In this document: piece by piece, positions 20,063 through 50,823 of the stretch
How the letters are laid out: each line of letters begins with the position of its first letter
Numbering within the stretch: the first letter of the stretch is position 1
Source of the DNA: Microbacterium sp. Clip185
Lineage (GTDB): Bacteria > Actinomycetota > Actinomycetes > Actinomycetales > Microbacteriaceae
Length of the DNA: 64,000 bases
Assembly (NCBI RefSeq): GCF_028743715.1
Contig: NZ_CP117996.1
Location: forward strand, 806,001 to 870,000
Direction: 5' to 3'
Notes under the pieces: model-generated
Told to the model about the DNA's origin: nothing
Seen by the model: the letters and a program-made list of their open reading frames with translations, nothing else
Databases searched by the model: none
Translations under genes and position numbers: made by a program

Positions 20063-21319
20063 TCAGACCCGCACGTCGCCCGTGGCCCGTGGCGTGAGGC
20101 GCTGCAGCTGGGTCACGTGAGCCGGGGTCAGCTCGGCGAGCTCGCGCACCTGGAGCAGCTTCATCGTGCGCTCGACCTGCTCGGCCAGGATGGCGATCGC
20201 CCGGTCGACGCCGGCCCGCCCGCCGGCCATCAATCCGTAGAGGTAGGCGCGGCCGATGAGGGTGAACTTCGCGCCCATCGCGATCGAGGCGACGATGTCG
20301 GCGCCGTCCATGATGCCGGTGTCGATCGCGATCTCCGTGTCGCGTCCGACCTCGCGCACCACCTCCGGCAGCAGATGGAACGGGATGGGCGCGCGGTCGA
20401 GCTGCCGGCCGCCGTGGTTCGACAGGACGAGTCCGTCGACGCCGAGATCGACGAGCTTGCGCGCATCCGGAACGTTCTGCACGCCCTTGATGACGATCTT
20501 GCCGGGCCACAGCGAGCGGATGATGTCGAGGTCCTCGAAGGAGATGGAGGGATCCATCGCGTTGTCGAGCAGTTCACCGACAGTGCCGCCGGTCGTGGTC
20601 AGCGACGCGAACTCGAGCTTCGGCGTGGTGAGGAAGTCGAACCACCACCAGGGGCGGGGGATCGCGTTGACGATCGTCCCGACGCTGAGCTGCGGCGGGA
20701 TGGAGAAGCCGTTGCGCTTGTCGCGCAGGCGAGCGCCCGCGACGGGGGTGTCGACGGTGAAGAAGAGCGTGTCGAAGCCCGCCTTGGCAGCCCGCTCGAC
20801 GAGACCGTAGGAGATGTCGCGGTTTCGCATGACGTACAGCTGGAACCAGTTGCGCCCGTGCGGATTGGTCGCCTTCACGTTCTCGATCGACGTCGTCCCG
20901 AGGGTTGAGAGGGTGAACGGGATGCCGGCGGCGCCGGCGGCAGCGGCGCCCGCGTACTCGCCCTCCGTCTGCATGAGCCGCGTGAAACCGGTCGGTGCGA
21001 TGCCGAAGGGGAGGGCGGAGGGACCGCCGAAGATCGTCGTGCTGGTGTCGACCTGCGAGACATCGCGCAGGATCGACGGATGGAACTCGATGTCGCGGAA
21101 CGCCTGGCGGGCTCGCTGCAGCGAGATCTCCCCATCCGCCGCGCCGTCCGTGTAGTCGAAGGCGGCTTTCGGTGTCCTGCGCTTGGCGATGCGCCGGAGG
21201 TCGTCGATCGTGAGCGCCGCGGAGAGCCGGCGGCGCGTGGCGTTCAGATCCGGCGTCTTGAACTGCATGAGTTCGAGAAGTTCGCGCGGGTTGGGAAGCT
21301 GTCGGCTGACGGGACTCAT
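20063..21319 (-). CDS. lldD: FMN-dependent alpha-hydroxy-acid dehydrogenase (L-lactate type)
   Basis: Oxidises an (S)-2-hydroxy acid, most likely L-lactate to pyruvate, with FMN. 418 residues. Family signatures are [43 protein letters not shown] and SNHGGRQLD with the catalytic His. The ATG at 21319 has AAGGA upstream; the N-terminal extension of about 30 residues is usual in actinobacterial LldD. It is divergent from a FadR/LldR-type regulator with a matching operator-like palindrome between them. A related lactate monooxygenase or mandelate dehydrogenase is possible. No mycofactocin genes are nearby, which argues against MftD. Confidence 0.87.
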
Positions 21320-21363
21320 CGGTGTCCTTCGAGAGGGGAGCGCGCGGCGCAGAGGGCGTATCA

Positions 21364-21377
21364 ATTGGTCTGACCTC
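21364..21377. promoter_or_regulatory. FadR/LldR-type operator candidate
   Basis: ATTGGTCTGACCTC contains GGTC-T-GACC, a perfect inverted repeat around one base, matching the TGGT..ACC pattern bound by FadR-subfamily GntR regulators. It lies between lldD (start 21319) and its divergent regulator (start 21454), where it could control both. Confidence 0.55.
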
Positions 21378-21453
21378 TGCGGTACAGTAGACGCCGGCCT
21401 CGGCGACGTCAACCCGCCGGGTGCGTTCGGCTCGACGGCGAGAGGATACCCCG

Positions 21454-22185
21454 GTGACAGATCAGCGCACCCCGGAATGGGCACCCGTGCAGCGCAGCCG
21501 CGCGCACGAACTCGTCATCCAAGCGATCGAGGACCAGATCATGGCCGGGTCGCTGCAGGTCGGAGATCCGCTTCCCTCGGAGCGCGACCTCGCCGCGCGC
21601 TTGGGCGTGAGCCGCGCCGGCGTCCGCGAGGCCGTGCGTGTTCTCGAGGGGCAGGGCGTGCTCCGCGCCCAGGTCGGAGCGGGCGCGGATGCGGGCACCT
21701 TCGTCGCCGCGCTGCCGGATGCCGCGCTCACCCGCTTCCTGCGGCTGCACGCGGCTCTCGCGAACTACCCCTACCCCGATGTCATCGAGGCGCGCATCGT
21801 GCTCGAACGATCGAGCGCCGAGCTCGCCGCGCGGAACGCGGATGCCGCCGCGCTCGCCGCGATCCGCGCAGCTCTCGACGCCGGTGCGGTCGCAGGGCTC
21901 GGTCCCGCGGAGTACAACGACACCGACACGGCCTTCCACGTCGCGATCGCGCAGGCCGGCGGCAATCGGCTCGTCGCATCGATGACGGTCGCGATCCGGG
22001 AGTCGCTGAGCAGCCGCATCCTCGACGCACTTCGTGACTATGCGGACTGGGAGGGGCTTGCCGCGACGCTGCACGCCCAGCACGTCGAGCTCTTCGACGC
22101 CATCGAGCGGCGCGACGGTGCGGCGGCCGCCGACCTCGCCGAGCGCCACATCCGCTTCGCCGTCGACGCCCTCGCCGGCGGCTGA
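21454..22185 (+). CDS. lldR: GntR/FadR-family regulator, LldR-like
   Basis: Transcription factor of 243 residues. The N-terminal winged helix shows [20 protein letters not shown] and [16 protein letters not shown]; the C-terminal part is an all-helical FCD ligand domain ([32 protein letters not shown] and [11 protein letters not shown] with metal-site His residues). GTG at 21454 is chosen because AGAGGA ends eight bases before it. The divergent arrangement with lldD suggests a lactate-responsive repressor; the effector is inferred. Confidence 0.87.
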
Positions 22186-22260
22186 TCCCCGCGGGCGGCT
22201 GATCCCCGCCACGTCTACCGGCCTGGTCGGGCATGCGTCGCTCGCGGCGCCGGATCGCGA

Positions 22261-22475
22261 CCCGAACTCCTGCACATCCGGCGTCGGCTGCTCCCGCCGG
22301 CCCCGCGCGGAGGGTTTTGCAGGAGTTCGGGCCGAGCGGGCTCCTATGGGTGCGCGTTCGGTGCCGCCGTCCCTTCCGCTCCACTGCTGCGTACCGAACT
22401 CCTGCACATCCGGCGTCGGCTGCTCCCGCCGGCCCCGCGCGGAGGGTTTTGCAGGAGTTCGGGCCGAGCGGGCTC
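22261..22475. repeat. left array: two 71-bp palindromes with 13-14-bp arms
   Basis: Unit 1 (22261-22331) has perfect arms CCCGAACTCCTGCA / TGCAGGAGTTCGGG; unit 2 spans 22394-22462. An 82-base stretch (22262-22343) is repeated without a mismatch at 22394-22475, an offset of 132 bases. The interior holds a smaller stem CCGGCG / CGCCGG (22278-22283 with 22295-22300). The surrounding gene-free stretch 22186-22592 otherwise holds only unique sequence between lldR and the nuclease-like gene. Confidence 0.9.
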
Positions 22476-22592
22476 TGCGATCGAGTCGGTTCCGCGCGGG
22501 GAGAGTCCTCCACCGGCCGAGGCTCACGGCGAGTTGCTCGCGCCGGCTCCTCTTCTCGCGGATGGGTCTGTCAGCTCCGTGAGGCTGTCGGC

Positions 22593-23432
22593 ATGCTGCT
22601 GGCCTCGCCGTCATACCTGCGCACCGCGGAGCTTCGCCTCCGTGGCTACACCCGTGCGACGATTCGGCACGCGCTAGACTGCGGCGACCTCATCCGGGTG
22701 CGACGGGGTCGGTACGTCTGGGGCGGTCTGCATGAGTCGCACCTCCTCGCTGCCCGCTGGGGCGGCCGTCTCGACTGCGTGTCACTGCTGGGCGCTCTGG
22801 GTGTTTTCACCCTGTCTCCTGATGAAACCCACTTGCAGTTCGACCGTACGGACTCGCGCCTGCCACGTCGTCACCGCGGTATCCGGGCGCACTGGCGTGA
22901 GTCCACGTGCGCGCGGGGGGATCTCCAAGCCGATCTGGTGGAGGCGCTCGCTCAGGCATGCCGCTGTCAGTCGCCCCGGGTCGCCGTCGCGAGTCTCGAC
23001 AGCGCGTTGCACCTGGGCTTGATCGACGCGGTCGATCTCGACGCCGTTTTCGACCGACTTCCCCGCAGCCACCGATCACTGCGCAAGCTCATCGACGCGC
23101 GGGCCGAAGCGGGCTCAGAGACGCTCGTGCGGTTGATGCTGCGGAGCTTGGGATACCGTCCTGCGCTGCAGGTCAGTCTTCCGGGCGTGGGGAGGGTGGA
23201 TCTGCTCGTCGACGGTTGGCTCATCGTGGAGTGCGACAGCCGCGCGTTCCACGGCGACCTCTCGCAACAGATCAGAGACCGGCGCCGCGACCTCGCTGCG
23301 GCCGAGTTGGGTTACGTGACGATCCGCATCCTGGCGGAGGACATCTTCCACCGTCCGGATGCGGTGCGCGCCGCCCTCCGCGCGGTACTCGCTCGTCGGC
23401 GGGGCGGGGGTAGCAGCAGAGCGAGCGACTGA
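22593..23432 (+). CDS. AbiEi-like winged helix fused to PD-(D/E)XK (DUF559/Vsr-like) nuclease domain
   Basis: A 279-residue protein. The N-terminal part (RGYTRATIRHALDCGDLIRV, then RRGRYVWGG) resembles the winged helix of AbiEi-type antitoxins. The C-terminal 110 residues look like a Vsr/DUF559 restriction-endonuclease fold: ETLVRLMLRSLGY, then the acidic positions in GRVDLLVDG and IVECDSRAFH, then RDRRRDLAAAELGYVTIR. The ATG at 22593 has GTGAGG eight bases upstream. The gene stands alone and is bracketed by two arrays sharing the palindrome arm CCGAACTCCTGCA. Such proteins occur in many copies in Actinobacteria and their function is not established; no partner toxin is adjacent. Confidence 0.8.
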   Translation: MLLASPSYLRTAELRLRGYTRATIRHALDCGDLIRVRRGRYVWGGLHESHLLAARWGGRLDCVSLLGALGVFTLSPDETHLQFDRTDSRLPRRHRGIRAHWRESTCARGDLQADLVEALAQACRCQSPRVAVASLDSALHLGLIDAVDLDAVFDRLPRSHRSLRKLIDARAEAGSETLVRLMLRSLGYRPALQVSLPGVGRVDLLVDGWLIVECDSRAFHGDLSQQIRDRRRDLAAAELGYVTIRILAEDIFHRPDAVRAALRAVLARRRGGGSSRASD

Positions 23433-23508
23433 ACGCCATTGCTCGTGGTGCGGCGGCCGCGACAGACTGTGCCGTCGCCCGCATCCACCGCTCGACGCCG
23501 TGAGGTGT

Positions 23509-23881
23509 CCGAACTCCTGCAATCCGTCACTTTCGGTGGTTCAGCCGGGCCCGCGGCGCGGTTCTGCAGGAGTTCGGGCCGGATGCGGCCGTCGGCGGCG
23601 CTGTGCGTGCGACGACGAGCGCGTGCCCGCTCCGGTTACCCGGGGCTTGCCGCCATCGGTCCGAACTCCTGCAATCCGTCACTTTCGGTGGTTCAGCCGG
23701 GCCCGCGGCGCGGTTCTGCAGGAGTTCGGGCCGGATGCGGCCATCACGGCGCTGGGCATGCGGCGACGAGCGCGTGCCCACCCCGGTCACCCGCGGCTCG
23801 CCGCCGTCGGCCCGAACTCCTGCAATCCGTCGCTTTCGCCGGTTCAGCCGGGCCTGCGGGGCGGTTCAGCAGGAGTTCGGG
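23509..23881. repeat. right array: three 69-71-bp palindromes, about 152-bp period
   Basis: Units at 23509-23577, 23661-23729 and 23811-23881 carry the same outer arms as the left array (CCGAACTCCTGCA / TGCAGGAGTTCGG) but a different interior. Units 3 and 4 are identical inside; unit 5 has diverged and has a mismatch in its right arm. The spacers also repeat, giving tandem periods of 152 and 151 bases. The whole gene-free stretch 23433-23920 is made up of this array plus short flanks. Confidence 0.9.
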
Positions 23882-23920
23882 CCAGCGGACCACACGGCCG
23901 CCCGGGCGGGGCGGCAGGGG

Positions 23921-24925
23921 TCAGCTGCGGCGGAGGAGGCCGATGCGGTCGTAGACGTCGCCAAGGGTCTGCTCAGCGACGGCCGAGGCCTTCTGCGCAT
24001 TGACGGCCAGGGCGCGGTCGAGTTCGGCGGGGTCGTCGAGCATGGCCAGGGCGCGCTCGCGCACCGGGCCGAACTCCGACACGACGACCTCCGCCAGCGC
24101 CTTCTTGAAGTCGCCGTAGCCGCGGCCCGCGAACTCGTCCTCGATCGAGGGGATCTGCCGGCCCGTGAGCGCGGCGAAGATCACGAGCAGGTTCGACACG
24201 CCGGGCTTGGTCTCGCGGTCGTACCGCACGACGCCTTCGGAGTCGGTCACCGCGCGCATGATCTTCTTCGCGTTGACCGCCGGGTCGTCGAGCAGCCACA
24301 GCACACCCGCGTCGGACTCCGCCGACTTCGACATCTTCGAGGTCGGATTCTGCAGGTCGTAGATGCGGGCCGTGTCCTGTCGGATCACGGGGGTCGGCAC
24401 GGTGAAGGTCTCGCCGTACCGCGCGTTGAAGCGCTCTGCGAGGTCGCGGGTCAGCTCGACGTGCTGCTTCTGGTCGTCGCCGACGGGCACGACGTTGGTC
24501 TGGTACAGCAGGATGTCGGCGGCCATCAGCACCGGGTAGGTGAACAGGCCGACGTTGGTCGCGTCGCTGCCGTACCGCTGCGACTTGTCCTTGAACTGCG
24601 TCATGCGGCCTGCCTCGCCGAAGCCGGTGATCGTCGACAGGACCCAGGCCAGCTCGGCGTGCGCGGGAACGTGCGACTGCACGTACAGCGCCGACTTGGA
24701 GGGCTCGATGCCGGCCGCGATGTACTGGGCGGCCGTGCGCCGGGTCTTCGCGCGGAGCTCTGCCGGGTCGTTGGGCTGCGTGAGCGCGTGCAGGTCGACG
24801 ACGGAGAAGAACGCGTCGTACGACTCCTGCAGGTCGCGCCACTGCAGCAGTGCCCCGATGTAGTTGCCGATCTGGAGGGAGTCGGCCGAGGGCTGCATTC
24901 CGGAGTACAGGCGCGCTTTGCTCAC
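23921..24925 (-). CDS. trpS: tryptophanyl-tRNA synthetase
   Basis: Charges tRNA-Trp with tryptophan, cytosolic class I enzyme. 334 residues, normal bacterial length. The HIGH-equivalent is SLQIGNYIGAL and the KMSKS loop is intact (NPTSKMSKS); MAADILLYQTNVVPVGDDQKQH is the tryptophan-site region, seen in two parts MAADILLY and VPVGDDQKQH. The start is GTG at 24925, six bases after TAGAAT, so the message is probably leaderless. Confidence 0.97.
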   Translation of the reverse strand: MSKARLYSGMQPSADSLQIGNYIGALLQWRDLQESYDAFFSVVDLHALTQPNDPAELRAKTRRTAAQYIAAGIEPSKSALYVQSHVPAHAELAWVLSTITGFGEAGRMTQFKDKSQRYGSDATNVGLFTYPVLMAADILLYQTNVVPVGDDQKQHVELTRDLAERFNARYGETFTVPTPVIRQDTARIYDLQNPTSKMSKSAESDAGVLWLLDDPAVNAKKIMRAVTDSEGVVRYDRETKPGVSNLLVIFAALTGRQIPSIEDEFAGRGYGDFKKALAEVVVSEFGPVRERALAMLDDPAELDRALAVNAQKASAVAEQTLGDVYDRIGLLRRS

Positions 24926-24931
24926 CCGTCG

Positions 24932-24937
24932 ATTCTA
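24932..24937 (-). promoter_or_regulatory. -10 element of leaderless trpS promoter
   Basis: TAGAAT on the minus strand, 6 bases before the GTG at 24925. Confidence 0.55.
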
Positions 24938-24966
24938 CGGACCCGGATGCGGTGCGCCGTCGCCTC

Positions 24967-25815
24967 TCAGACGCCCAGACGGTAGTCGGCTACCACGGGA
25001 GCGTGGTCGCTCCACCGTTCGGCGTACGAGGCAGCCCGCGCAACCCGGTAGTCGGCAACGCGCGCCGCGAGGGCGGGAGTGGCCATGTGGTAGTCGATGC
25101 GCCAGCCGGTGTCGTTGTCGAACGCCTGTCCGCGGTTGGACCACCAGGTGTAGGGGCCGTCGACCTCGCCGGCGAAACGGCGACCCACATCCACCCAGCC
25201 GAGCCCGACGCCCTCGACTCCATCGACGCCCGTCACGAGAGCGCCGGCATCGCCGAAGAAGCGGTCGAAGTAGGAGCGCTCGCGGGGGAGGAACCCCGCC
25301 TTCTTCTGATTGCCGCGCCAGTTCTTGATGTCGAAAGGGCGGTGCCCGACGTTGAGGTCGCCGGTGACGAGCGCGAGCGCGTCGTTCTGAGCCAGCTCGG
25401 GCAGCCGCACGCTCATTGCGTCGAGGAACCCGTACTTCGCGTCCTGACGGGGAGTTCCGTCTTCACCGGAGTGCACATAGGCGCTGACCACCGTGAGGCG
25501 CTCGCCGTCGACCTCGACGTCGGCCTCGATCCACCGCCCGCGGGAATCGACGCTCTCGTCGCCGAGCTCGATGCGGGATGCGGTGATCGGGATGCGGCTG
25601 GCCACAGCCACCCCGGAGCGCCCCTTCGTCAGCGACTCGTCGTGGACGAGCTCCCAGCCCGGAAGCGCGCTCTCGAGATGGGTCAGTTCGCCGCGCACCT
25701 CTTGGAGCGTCAAGATGTCGACGTCCGCGCTGTCGAGCCAGCCGGCCATGCCGTTTCTCACCGCAGCGCGGATTCCATTGACGTTGACAGAGGCGATGCG
25801 AAGGGTTCGTGACAC
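24967..25815 (-). CDS. xthA: exodeoxyribonuclease III / AP endonuclease
   Basis: DNA-repair nuclease of the EEP family, 282 residues from the GTG at 25815. Catalytic motifs: ASVNVNGIRAA, LTLQEVRG with the metal-binding Glu, the catalytic Asp and Asn in TGDLNVGHRPFDI, and the terminal WSDHAPV with the catalytic His. The start at 25815 is preferred over GTG at 25845 because the family begins just before the first beta strand and because TACGCT lies seven bases upstream. Probably monocistronic. Confidence 0.93.
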   Translation of the reverse strand: MSRTLRIASVNVNGIRAAVRNGMAGWLDSADVDILTLQEVRGELTHLESALPGWELVHDESLTKGRSGVAVASRIPITASRIELGDESVDSRGRWIEADVEVDGERLTVVSAYVHSGEDGTPRQDAKYGFLDAMSVRLPELAQNDALALVTGDLNVGHRPFDIKNWRGNQKKAGFLPRERSYFDRFFGDAGALVTGVDGVEGVGLGWVDVGRRFAGEVDGPYTWWSNRGQAFDNDTGWRIDYHMATPALAARVADYRVARAASYAERWSDHAPVVADYRLGV

Positions 25816-40401: not shown

Positions 40402-40674
40402 GGCAGGCGGGCAGACCCGCGCCTGCGCCGGCCTCGGTCGGGCGCCGCGGGTAGGTCGCTCCGGCTCTCGGTGCGGTCGGTTGGGTCCGTGCTGTCCCCG
40501 CGGTCCCATCCGTTTCTCAGTCGCGCAGGTTTTTGGGGCGCGGGACATGAACGTGTGGGACACGGAAGGGTATCGGCCCTTTCGGGTCCTCCCCAGGCGC
40601 CCACGCTCGGCGGGTCGCCGACGGTGACCACGGGCGCCGCGGAAGCAGACGGGCGGTCGTGATGGGATGCCCCG
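40402..40674. other. gene-free interval between add and the second nuclease-like gene
   Basis: A weak GC-rich hairpin (AGGCGGG with CCCGCGCCT) lies just after the add stop and may terminate the operon. The rest of the interval shows no convincing ORF, repeat or promoter. Confidence 0.4.
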
Positions 40675-41589
40675 ATGACCGACGCAACGCATCCGCCATC
40701 CGGCTTTACGTATCGGGCGGCGCGCGAAGCAGGCATCGGACGCGGTGTGCTGCAGGGGACGCGGTTCCTCGCACCGTTCCACGGCGTTCGCGCGGAGCGG
40801 TACGAGCGGCATCCGGACGTCGACGAGTTGCTGCGTCGTTGCCTCTGGTATCTGCCCCGACTGCGCGAGGGTCAGTTCTTCAGCCACGCCACGGCACTCG
40901 CTCTCTATGGCGCCACGGTCCCGCCGCGTGAGGAGCGAGCGCTCCACGTCTCGGTGCATCGGCCGTCCTCTCCGCCACGCACGCGCGGGGTGTCCGGCCA
41001 CCGACTGCAGCAGCGTGATCCCGACGTTCACCTGCTCGGCGAGCTCCCTGTCGAGGCGCCGGAGAGAGCGTGGGTGCAGGCGTCTCGAGACTGGACGACA
41101 GATGAGCTCGTCGTCGCCGCAGACCACCTCGTGCGACGTGACCGCCCGCTCACGACCATCCGGGCGCTGACCGCGGAGGCGCTGCGCATGCGGGGCGACG
41201 TCCTCGGTGAGCCGCTGTCGCTCGTGCGGGAGGGCTCCGAGTCGGCGCGCGAGACGCTGCTGCGTCTGGTGCTGGTGCGCGCGGGACTGCCCGAACCCGA
41301 GCTCAACGTGCCGCTTCGAGACACGCAGGGACGCACCATCGCCCGTCTGGATGAAGCGTTCCCCGCATATCGCGTGGCGGTCGAGTACGACGGGCGTCAA
41401 CATGCCTTCAGCGTTTCGCAGTTCCGCCGCGATGCGGATCGCTGGGACGCCATTCGGGATGCGGGATGGCACCTCGTCCGGATCCTCGATCACCACCTCT
41501 CACCCGATCCTGGGATCGCTGTCGCCAAGGTGCGTGCAGCGCTCATCGCGCGGGGCTGGAAGGACCACGGTCGCCGGTTCACGCTCTGA
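40675..41589 (+). CDS. AbiEi-like / PD-(D/E)XK (DUF559-like) nuclease-domain protein, second copy
   Basis: A 304-residue protein of the same broad class as the one at 22593 but clearly divergent. The N-terminal half is a winged-helix-like module (FTYRAAREAGIGRGVL, FSHATALALYGA). The C-terminal part has the fold's typical run: SARETLLRLVLVRAGLPEPE, acidic position in ARLDEAFP, then VAVEYDGRQH with the Glu and Asp of the active site, RRDADRWDAIRDAGWHLVRI. The ATG at 40675 is used. Eighteen bases after its stop begins a four-unit palindrome array. Solitary, with no methyltransferase or toxin partner; biochemical role unknown. Confidence 0.8.
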   Translation: MTDATHPPSGFTYRAAREAGIGRGVLQGTRFLAPFHGVRAERYERHPDVDELLRRCLWYLPRLREGQFFSHATALALYGATVPPREERALHVSVHRPSSPPRTRGVSGHRLQQRDPDVHLLGELPVEAPERAWVQASRDWTTDELVVAADHLVRRDRPLTTIRALTAEALRMRGDVLGEPLSLVREGSESARETLLRLVLVRAGLPEPELNVPLRDTQGRTIARLDEAFPAYRVAVEYDGRQHAFSVSQFRRDADRWDAIRDAGWHLVRILDHHLSPDPGIAVAKVRAALIARGWKDHGRRFTL

Positions 41590-41606: not shown

Positions 41607-41878
41607 CGTGTCTCGGTTGTGCACGAGCGCGAGCCCTGGAGCCTGAATGAGTGAGACACGGAGGCGATCGAGCGCAGTGCGTGTCTCAGGGGTGCACCCC
41701 TTCGTGGCGCGGAGCGTGAATGAGTGAGACACGGAGGCATCGGGTGAGCTGCGTGTCTCAACCGTGCACGACTTTGGGTCGTCCCGTGTGAATGAGTGAG
41801 ACACGGAGGCGATCGAGCGCAGCGCGTGTCTCAACCGTGCACGAACCTGAGCCCTGGGGCGTGAAGGAGTGAGACACG
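41607..41878. repeat. array of four 54-bp palindromes, 72-73-bp period
   Basis: Units at 41607-41660, 41680-41733, 41752-41805 and 41825-41878 are each exactly 54 bases from arm CGTGTCTC to arm GAGACACG. Most also share GTGCAC near the left arm and GTGAATGAGT or a close variant near the right arm. Loops differ, while two of the three 18-19-base spacers differ by one base only. The gene-free stretch 41590-41925 consists of this array plus short flanks. Confidence 0.9.
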
Positions 41879-50697: not shown

Positions 50698-50823
50698 CGC
50701 GTCTCAATCGTTCACGTACCCGGGGCGATTCGCGTGAACGGTTGAGACACGGATGCGGCGCGGGTGATGCGTGTCTCATTCGTGCAGGTCGTACGCCCCC
50801 GTCGCGTGAACGATTGAGACACG
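50698..50823. repeat. two further 54-bp palindromes of the 41.6-kb family
   Basis: Units at 50698-50751 and 50770-50823, each exactly 54 bases and 72 bases apart, with arms CGCGTCTC or CGTGTCTC and GAGACACG. Unit 1 is nearly perfect: GTCTCAATCGTTCACG against CGTGAACGGTTGAGAC. A 16-base direct repeat, GGATGCTGTGACGAGC, follows twice (50823-50838, 50839-50854). The gene-free stretch 50575-50909 between mtlR and the convergent acetyltransferase consists of these plus short flanks. Confidence 0.88.

Follow-up and report, generated by a model that had tools for sequence, protein, structure and literature searches.

The window analysed here is a 64 kb stretch of DNA, positions 806001-870000 of the 3.31 Mb single-contig genome of Microbacterium sp. 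Clip185 (referred to below as G000). It contains a gene in which an AbiEi-like part is joined to a PD-(D/E)XK nuclease of the Vsr/DUF559/MTES_1575 type, and five palindromes with a common outer arm bracket this gene (Table 1), as the first-pass annotation had proposed. The array is confirmed: none of 100 shuffled windows contained a palindrome of the AACTCCTGCA type at the same spacing. The element has the form AACTCCTGCA-N43-TGCAGGAGTT, with a core of 63 bp, or 69 bp when counted from CCG to CGG. Its 10-base arms are perfect in four of the five copies, the last having a single mismatch. The left pair consists of near-identical tandem duplicates and the right three form a tandem triple; left and right copies have the arms in common and not the interiors. 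A scan at the same spacing with up to three mismatches found no AACTCCTGCA-type copy in the window beyond these five. Thus, the claim that the element occurs nowhere else holds for the window but not for the genome, where approximately 26 copies lie at 14 loci.

Table 1. Nuclease genes and palindromes located in the window (positions counted from its first nucleotide)
Feature	Position	Strand	Remarks
Nuclease gene, AbiEi-like + Vsr/DUF559/MTES_1575-type PD-(D/E)XK	22593..23432	+	279 aa
Codons of residues 82-87 (QFDRTD), loop with residues 85-87 tracking arm bases	22836..22853	+	computed from ORF start
Palindrome copy 1, 5' side	22262..22330		63 bp core 22265-22327
Palindrome copy 2, 5' side	22394..22462		core 22397-22459; tandem duplicate of copy 1
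Palindrome copy 3, 3' side	23509..23577		core 23512-23574
Palindrome copy 4, 3' side	23661..23729		core 23664-23726; tandem duplicate of copy 3
Palindrome copy 5, 3' side	23812..23880		core 23815-23877; 1 arm mismatch
Second nuclease of the same kind, own palindrome family	40675..41589	+	304 aa
52-bp palindrome GTGTCTCA...TGAGACAC, 5' of second nuclease	40512..40563		2 arm mismatches
52-bp palindrome, second family, 3' side	41608..41659		1 arm mismatch
52-bp palindrome, second family, 3' side	41681..41732		
52-bp palindrome, second family, 3' side	41753..41804		
52-bp palindrome, second family, 3' side	41826..41877		
Dispersed copy, second family	50699..50750		1 arm mismatch
Dispersed copy, second family	50771..50822		

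The reading frame of the nuclease is open from 22233. Codon usage in the first part of the gene (22593-23195) differs from that of the neighbouring genes, which is why a codon-based caller set the start late. The gene is free-standing, with its repeats and then an unrelated gene on either side, and not inside an intron or intein. The adjoining genes match a GntR/FCD regulator and a class I tRNA synthetase (tRNA-synt_1b) in Pfam, and the next genes outwards match FMN_dh (FMN-dependent dehydrogenase) and Exo_endo_phos. The same Pfam scan revealed no toxin, methylase or other partner in defence beside the nuclease, and the called neighbours include no AbiEii/DUF1814 toxin gene. Rfam yielded no match at gathering score over 21000-25000; three weak matches, far under their gathering scores, were taken as chance.

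The fold of the protein is AbiEi-like plus a nuclease of the Vsr/I-Bth0305I type, with the DNA-binding part spanning approximately residues 1-168 and the PD-(D/E)XK part approximately residues 172-272. PADLOC AbiEi models match residues 3-100 of the N-terminal part (best E 1.2e-5), and the nuclease domain has weak matches to two defence-protein models (E 3e-4 and 1e-3). The PF18741 score was 36.5 bits against a cut-off of 38.2 in one scan and 39 bits, over the cut-off, in another. Pfam matches of six such proteins comprise only MTES_1575, DUF559 and AbiEi_4, with no HUH/Y1 tyrosine transposase, and none of five proteins matched NCBIfam. Both the fold and the conserved acidic residues of Vsr-like PD-(D/E)XK enzymes are found in the window protein, the latter being presumably those of the PD-(D/E)XK motif, and nuclease residues are invariant across 80 homologues. 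In databases, such proteins are named either AbiEi antitoxin or very-short-patch-repair endonuclease, although each seems to possess its own cognate site.

Pairing of nuclease genes with palindromes

The gene had been described as solitary, a description that does not survive the genome search: G000 has five such nuclease/palindrome pairs, the second of which lies in the same window. Six PF18741 matches were found in this genome, five of them genes of 279-344 aa that are built alike. Four of these paralogues have matches to AbiEi models, and the fifth (L052) aligns nearly full-length to a profile of window-gene homologues. All five genes lie between copies of a palindrome of their own, with the arm AACTCCTGCA at the gene 22593-23432, GTGTCTCA at the gene 40675-41589, and TCTCGGAG, GTCCCACTT and TCGAGGGAC at the other three. 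Four of the families are dispersed, at 63/64, 48, 57 and 52 bp. In exact-copy searches that allowed a range of 31 lengths, the GTCCCACTT family measured 48 bp in 12/12 copies, the TCGAGGGAC family 57 bp in 9/9 and the GTGTCTCA family 52 bp in 24/24 copies genome-wide. The TCTCGGAG family was found only at its own gene in an exact search of G000; it has nested double arms (L052 4598-4666 and 5618-5690). Around the sixth PF18741 match, located in a 1250-residue frame, such repeats are absent from the 3 kb examined. The two nucleases of the window point the same way and are separated by 18 kb; in several genomes, pairs of homologous nuclease genes often have opposite orientations and a distance of approximately 18-20 kb, as though they occupied two conserved sites (for example, G194:C1 729570 and 749555).

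The association extends to homologues of the window gene. We searched de novo for an inverted-repeat arm common to both flanks (600 bp each) and found one of at least 9 bases at 52 of 90 homologue loci versus 0 of 135 control genes, the controls being similar-sized genes from the same loci rather than a random genome sample. Hence, the link between palindromes and nuclease gene is real, and the proposed pairing of the palindrome with the enclosed Vsr/AbiEi-like protein, in a layout like that of REP elements and RAYT genes, is strongly supported. The arms mostly consist of an AACTCC core followed by TGCA, TCAA, TGAG, GGAG, ACGGA, TCCA, TTCGA or GGCG; in one clade the arm is CACAACGTCG. When the 90 loci were read for AACTCC...GGAGTT pairs 40-100 long whose arms agree for 8 bases or more, 139 elements were obtained, 28 of 63 bp, 9 of 64, 1 of 72, 17 of 73, 81 of 74, 2 of 75 and 1 of 85 bp. 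Such elements are present at 72/90 loci and on both sides of the gene at 39/90. Homologues without palindromes had been put forward as evidence that would speak against the pairing, and an AACTCC-type element was indeed not found at 18/90 loci, but some of these have another common arm, e.g. CACAACGTCGC.

Beyond the genus, 15 element-bearing genomes of Cryobacterium, Glaciibacter and Lacisediminihabitans were sampled. A nuclease homologue at E<=1e-20 is present in 11 of them; the four without one at this threshold, despite carrying the element, are Cryobacterium aureum, lactosi, levicorallinum and glucosi. Arms of at least 9 bases on both flanks occur at 17/22 loci in these genera, and at 10/11 loci with E<=1e-39. 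In a class-wide actinobacterial sample, 39/118 genomes had a match at E<=1e-10, and 28 loci were examined, 26 outside the family and 2 inside it (another genus). Outside the family, a common word of at least 9 bases was found at 4/26 loci (0/175 controls) and an equal-length 8-base arm on both sides at 7/26 (0/175 controls); neither was found at the two loci inside it. Bracketing is therefore weaker in the class-wide sample than among close homologues.

Most dispersed copies carry the arm of the nuclease in their own genome, with exceptions. Searches with the bare core gave 30, 69, 14, 16 and 44 matches in five genomes, versus 0, 2, 0, 0 and 1 for the reversed control. Arm types were read in G092, G144 and G073, and the other two genomes, G182 and G286, contribute counts. 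In G092, the TGA arm of its nuclease locus is on 25/30 core matches, and in G144 nearly all among the matches listed are of the TCA type, as at its nuclease. The 14 copies in G073 include 5 with ACGG, its nuclease arm, on both sides and 4 with it on one side, the remainder being 2 of the TTCG type, 1 ACGG/TTCG hybrid and 2 others. In this genome (G073:C1 279720-280062 and 3174025-3174098), ACGGA and TTCGA types lie side by side, together with a hybrid that has one arm of each. G135 has 10 TGCA elements, yet TCAA arms at its nuclease locus; G253 and G376 have 4 TGCA elements each, and the nuclease loci read there carry other arms.

The geometry of the element is strict. Among 159 elements over 112 nuclease loci, the lengths are 63 (27), 64 (9), 72 (1), 73 (16), 74 (81), 75 (2), 84 (11), 85 (11) and 95 bp (1), such that all but one belong to three classes (63/64, 72-75 and 84/85 bp), each differing from the next by one helical turn. 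The class means are 63.25, 73.84 and 84.5 bp, and the best period, fitted between 8 and 14, is approximately 10.5-10.85 bp. The third class corresponds to Cryobacterium, Glaciibacter and Lacisediminihabitans, where the spacing is mostly 84-85 bp. In 11 positional orthologue pairs (G000 versus G079 or G078), 218/220 arm positions are identical, compared with 348/491 in the interior and 948/1446 in the 60-bp flanks; pairs were made by position, interior-based pairing having been dropped because of some false pairs. The interior is poorly conserved, with some A/T preference near the middle in the 73-bp class. Symmetric pairing within it shows no excess over the control in the 63, 64, 73 and 74 classes (0.350 versus 0.363, 0.313 versus 0.351, 0.395 versus 0.371 and 0.388 versus 0.365, respectively). 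Compared with shuffled sequences, interiors fold slightly better in the 72-75 bp class (mean z -0.72, standard error 0.20), the mean z in the 63/64 class being -0.27 (standard error 0.11). On these data we rejected an interior hairpin or RNA structure, and conserved arms around a drifting interior fit two protein contacts at a fixed helical phase on double-stranded DNA, not a hairpin.

Arm sequence and spacing follow the nuclease phylogeny, the former being a check suggested in the first-pass annotation. On a tree of 111 proteins, 84 of them with labelled arms, spacing class changes 3 times (mean of 300 shuffles 26.4, minimum 22) and arm class 23 times (mean 51.0, minimum 45, again for 300 shuffles). 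Among Microbacterium loci, arm class shows its strongest association with three protein columns, residues 85, 83 and 86. Over all 84 proteins, a C at arm base 9 is accompanied by Arg85 in 36/41 cases, and another base there by another residue in 40/43; TC or TT at arm bases 7-8 is accompanied by Gly86 in 18/18 cases versus 10/66 otherwise, and AC by Thr87 in 9/10 versus 1/74 otherwise. Arg85 is also present in 8/8 Cryobacterium and Lacisediminihabitans proteins with TGCA arms, which are approximately 40% identical to the window protein, while one of 28 TGCA-type proteins (L297) lacks it. On greedily chosen independent pairs, from a tree built without the tested columns, 7.8 pairs agreed with the expected association, 0 opposed it and 5.2 showed no difference. 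Residue 85 had the highest score (7.68) in 596 column tests made on such pairs, a value closely approached by Glu221 (7.6); with starred branches only, the main tests retain 3-5 pairs, too few for significance. We infer, with good support, that the protein recognises the arm.

Dispersed copies and evidence of copying

The 13-base arm has 41 exact matches in the genome of G000 versus 0 for the reversed control. Not counting two in-gene matches (3002463 and 3180877), these make up approximately 26 elements in which one arm or both are exact, and since the element is found at 13 other places, the window gene is at one of 14 loci. Elements at the other loci have different interiors and a length of 63 bp, or 64 bp in three cases. 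Extending the search to related genomes, as the first-pass annotation had advised, requiring perfect 10-base arms separated by 32-62 bases, revealed at least one copy in 42/366 Microbacterium genomes, with up to 26 copies and none for the reversed control. A nuclease homologue at E<=1e-30 is present in 39 of these 42 genomes versus 252/366 overall; the three exceptions at this threshold (G003, G009 and G164) have one copy of the element each. Genera with the element, among the matches listed from a scan of named genomes, are Microbacterium, Cryobacterium, Lacisediminihabitans, Glaciibacter and Rhodoglobus; matches elsewhere are few and single. The arm pattern was also seen in at least 12 genome contigs outside Microbacteriaceae and in 8 viral contigs. 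Many of the single matches in unrelated phyla and in the viral contigs have lengths off the main classes, and they are probably due to chance. Their inclusion explains the scattered other lengths in our first element-length table. Contig matches outside the family were left out of the gene-context counts and the search for recurrent neighbours, and viral matches out of these and of the interior-pairing and folding analyses.

We placed 186 elements of several species relative to called genes: 1 overlaps such a gene, 17 are at a locus edge and the other 168 are intergenic. The larger groups of genes that recur beside elements are orthologous loci, among them genes that we take to be biotin-ligase-like and aspartokinase-like; ABC transporter genes also recur, as do presumably Ku-like, Nei-like and RecR-like genes (3-4 loci each). 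The nuclease family lies beside elements at 7 loci at a median distance of 43 bp, for which reason it was followed. Genome-wide scatter without enrichment near this gene family had been named as a refuting outcome; this was not observed, the copies being scattered but strongly enriched there.

Evidence that the element has been copied as a unit comes from G144. The copy at 967.95 kb, which adjoins the nuclease, is identical at 55-58 of 74 positions to each of three elements around 951.5-952 kb and to another at approximately 1535.8 kb, compared with only 10-14 of 30 positions in the 30-bp flanks. The best BLAST pairs in this genome end within a few bases of the element, although some pairs between other loci span two elements and the space between them (L405/L406, 288 bp; L407/L408, 283 bp). 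In a test on 25 of the 69 elements, similarity between interiors at distant loci reached 37 of 48, above the maximum of 35 in 200 column-shuffled nulls. These observations support copying confined to the element in at least one genome. In G000, however, the 52-bp family shows no interior similarity above the null (11 versus a null median of 11). Close species carry the compared copies at matching positions, and no clean empty site, at which a target-site duplication could be compared, was found. The sole empty-site candidate (G079 versus G000) proved to be a complex difference with a deleted gene. At L355 (G079:106900-110700), compared with L051, G079 has a gene, which looks to us like rtcB, between two elements; this gene and one element are absent from that place in G000. 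The suggestion of a mobile or self-spreading palindrome is thus partly supported: the element-limited copies in G144 favour it, and conserved positions and the lack of an empty site weigh against it.

Alternative explanations

The same conservation of position forms the basis of the alternative that survives best, namely, that the palindromes are resident, non-mobile and host-beneficial sites of a housekeeping factor that binds and cuts DNA sequence-specifically (serving chromosome architecture, as repair or recombination hot spots, or autoregulation), maintained by purifying selection. It would account for arms kept at the same positions in close species while interiors drift, and also for the crowding of the four dispersed families of G000 in the chromosome half around coordinate 1 (12/14, 9/11, 6/6 and 10/14 loci by family). 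Furthermore, the available text of PMC7319586 describes AbiEi proteins as autoregulators that bind inverted repeats, and places Rv2827c sites at a spacing 10 bp wider than that of AbiEi sites. However, copies 3' of the gene are unneeded for autoregulation, and resident sites would leave unexplained both the element-limited copies in G144 and the variation of arms by genome, mostly in agreement with the genome's own nuclease locus. Nor do the elements behave as a regulon: they are intergenic with no promoter preference, 82 of 168 placed elements lying between tandem, 52 between convergent and 34 between divergent genes (codon-based gene calls), which makes a regulon unlikely and disfavours a transcriptional operator model. 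On balance, we consider resident sites an unlikely, if serious, explanation.

A role in defence appears improbable. In such a role the AbiEi-nuclease would attack foreign DNA, with the palindromes as operators, decoys or marks of self, and it would be in keeping with the matches of the N-terminal part to PADLOC AbiEi models and of the nuclease domain to two defence-protein models, and with several divergent nuclease paralogues per genome, but not with the lack of a defence partner beside the window gene. Two further explanations have very little to recommend them. If the palindromes were an ordinary REP or MITE moved by an unrelated enzyme, with the nuclease a bystander at a hot spot, dispersed copies and genomes with no detected homologue would be expected, but the recurrent bracketing of homologues and not of control genes, the five different arm families that accompany the five paralogues in G000 and the tracking of arm bases by protein residues would not. 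Equally remote is an RNA-level element, terminator or processing hairpin, for which enrichment in convergent gaps (52/168 placed elements versus 91/467 gaps of at least 100 bp) and the slightly better folding of 72-75 bp interiors speak, and against which stand interior pairing at the control level, the Rfam result and a helical-turn spacing that is a signature of double-stranded DNA.

A candidate enzyme-plus-repeat system

We therefore regard it as probable, though well short of certain, that nuclease gene and palindromes are two halves of one system, in which the arms are bound by the protein and the element is copied via cuts. The AbiEi-like part would recognise the arm, and two subunits may bind the two inverted arms at a fixed helical phase, which would explain why spacings change by whole helical turns while the interior drifts freely. 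Most of the lineage shares the AACTCC core of the arm, and the bases that follow it would be read through loop residues 85-87, so that protein and arm would change together. The Vsr-like domain may cut DNA within the bound site or close to it. Domains of the PD-(D/E)XK type hydrolyse DNA and, to our knowledge, are not known to join strands; hence, copying would need host repair. By analogy with REPIN/RAYT, rare copying of the element during host repair of the cuts could give rise to tandem duplicates, to copies in other intergenic regions and to elements flanking the gene on either side. That copying, and with it the spreading of the palindrome, is driven by the cut we likewise infer.

Several known systems share parts of this organization. 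In REP/RAYT systems, according to the accessible portion of PMC3116915, inverted repeats flank the enzyme gene and dispersed intergenic copies form doublets and tandem clusters; the repeats have conserved ends and a length-constrained variable spacer, repeat groups are tied to particular enzyme genes, and REPIN spacers retain pairing through compensatory changes. As far as that portion allows comparison, the system described here is alike in the repeats flanking an enzyme gene with other copies in intergenic DNA, in doublets and tandem clusters, in conserved ends around a variable spacer of constrained length and in the tie between repeat group and enzyme. In contrast to the RAYT, an HUH tyrosine transposase, its enzyme matches AbiEi and Vsr-like nucleases, and, relative to the spacers described in the same portion, its spacer shows no hairpin pairing and has lengths stepping by helical turns. 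Because two features that define that family, the HUH enzyme and the hairpin, are missing, we liken the system to REPIN/RAYT and do not count it as a member.

With AbiEi and Rv2827c of the type IV AbiE toxin-antitoxin systems, the window protein shares the AbiEi fold and inverted repeats upstream of its own gene, two copies being located 5'. It differs from them in its fused nuclease domain, in the lack of an adjoining toxin gene and in having sites on either flank of the gene and throughout the genome rather than in the promoter alone. Vsr acts at T:G mismatches. The AbiEi-like part and the flanking repeats of its own set the protein apart from nucleases of the Vsr/I-Bth0305I type (DUF559, PF18741 MTES_1575), and its location outside any intron or intein from homing endonucleases.

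Taken together, the results point to an enzyme-plus-repeat family for which no description was found in the open-access literature searched. A wider proposal, which we put forward only tentatively, is that this is a second, independently evolved REPIN-like system, in which AbiEi-Vsr nucleases would recognise a phased palindrome, copy it by cutting and re-specialise through loop and arm, with a code readable from sequence. Repeated re-specialisation of loop and arm would make several private nuclease-palindrome pairs per genome possible. If this is true, a large protein family common in Microbacterium would gain a cognate target site, and there would be a non-HUH route to dispersed bacterial palindromes. 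Naturally matched sets of protein and site would also become available for deciphering a DNA-recognition code and for examining what limits helical phasing places on a nuclease.
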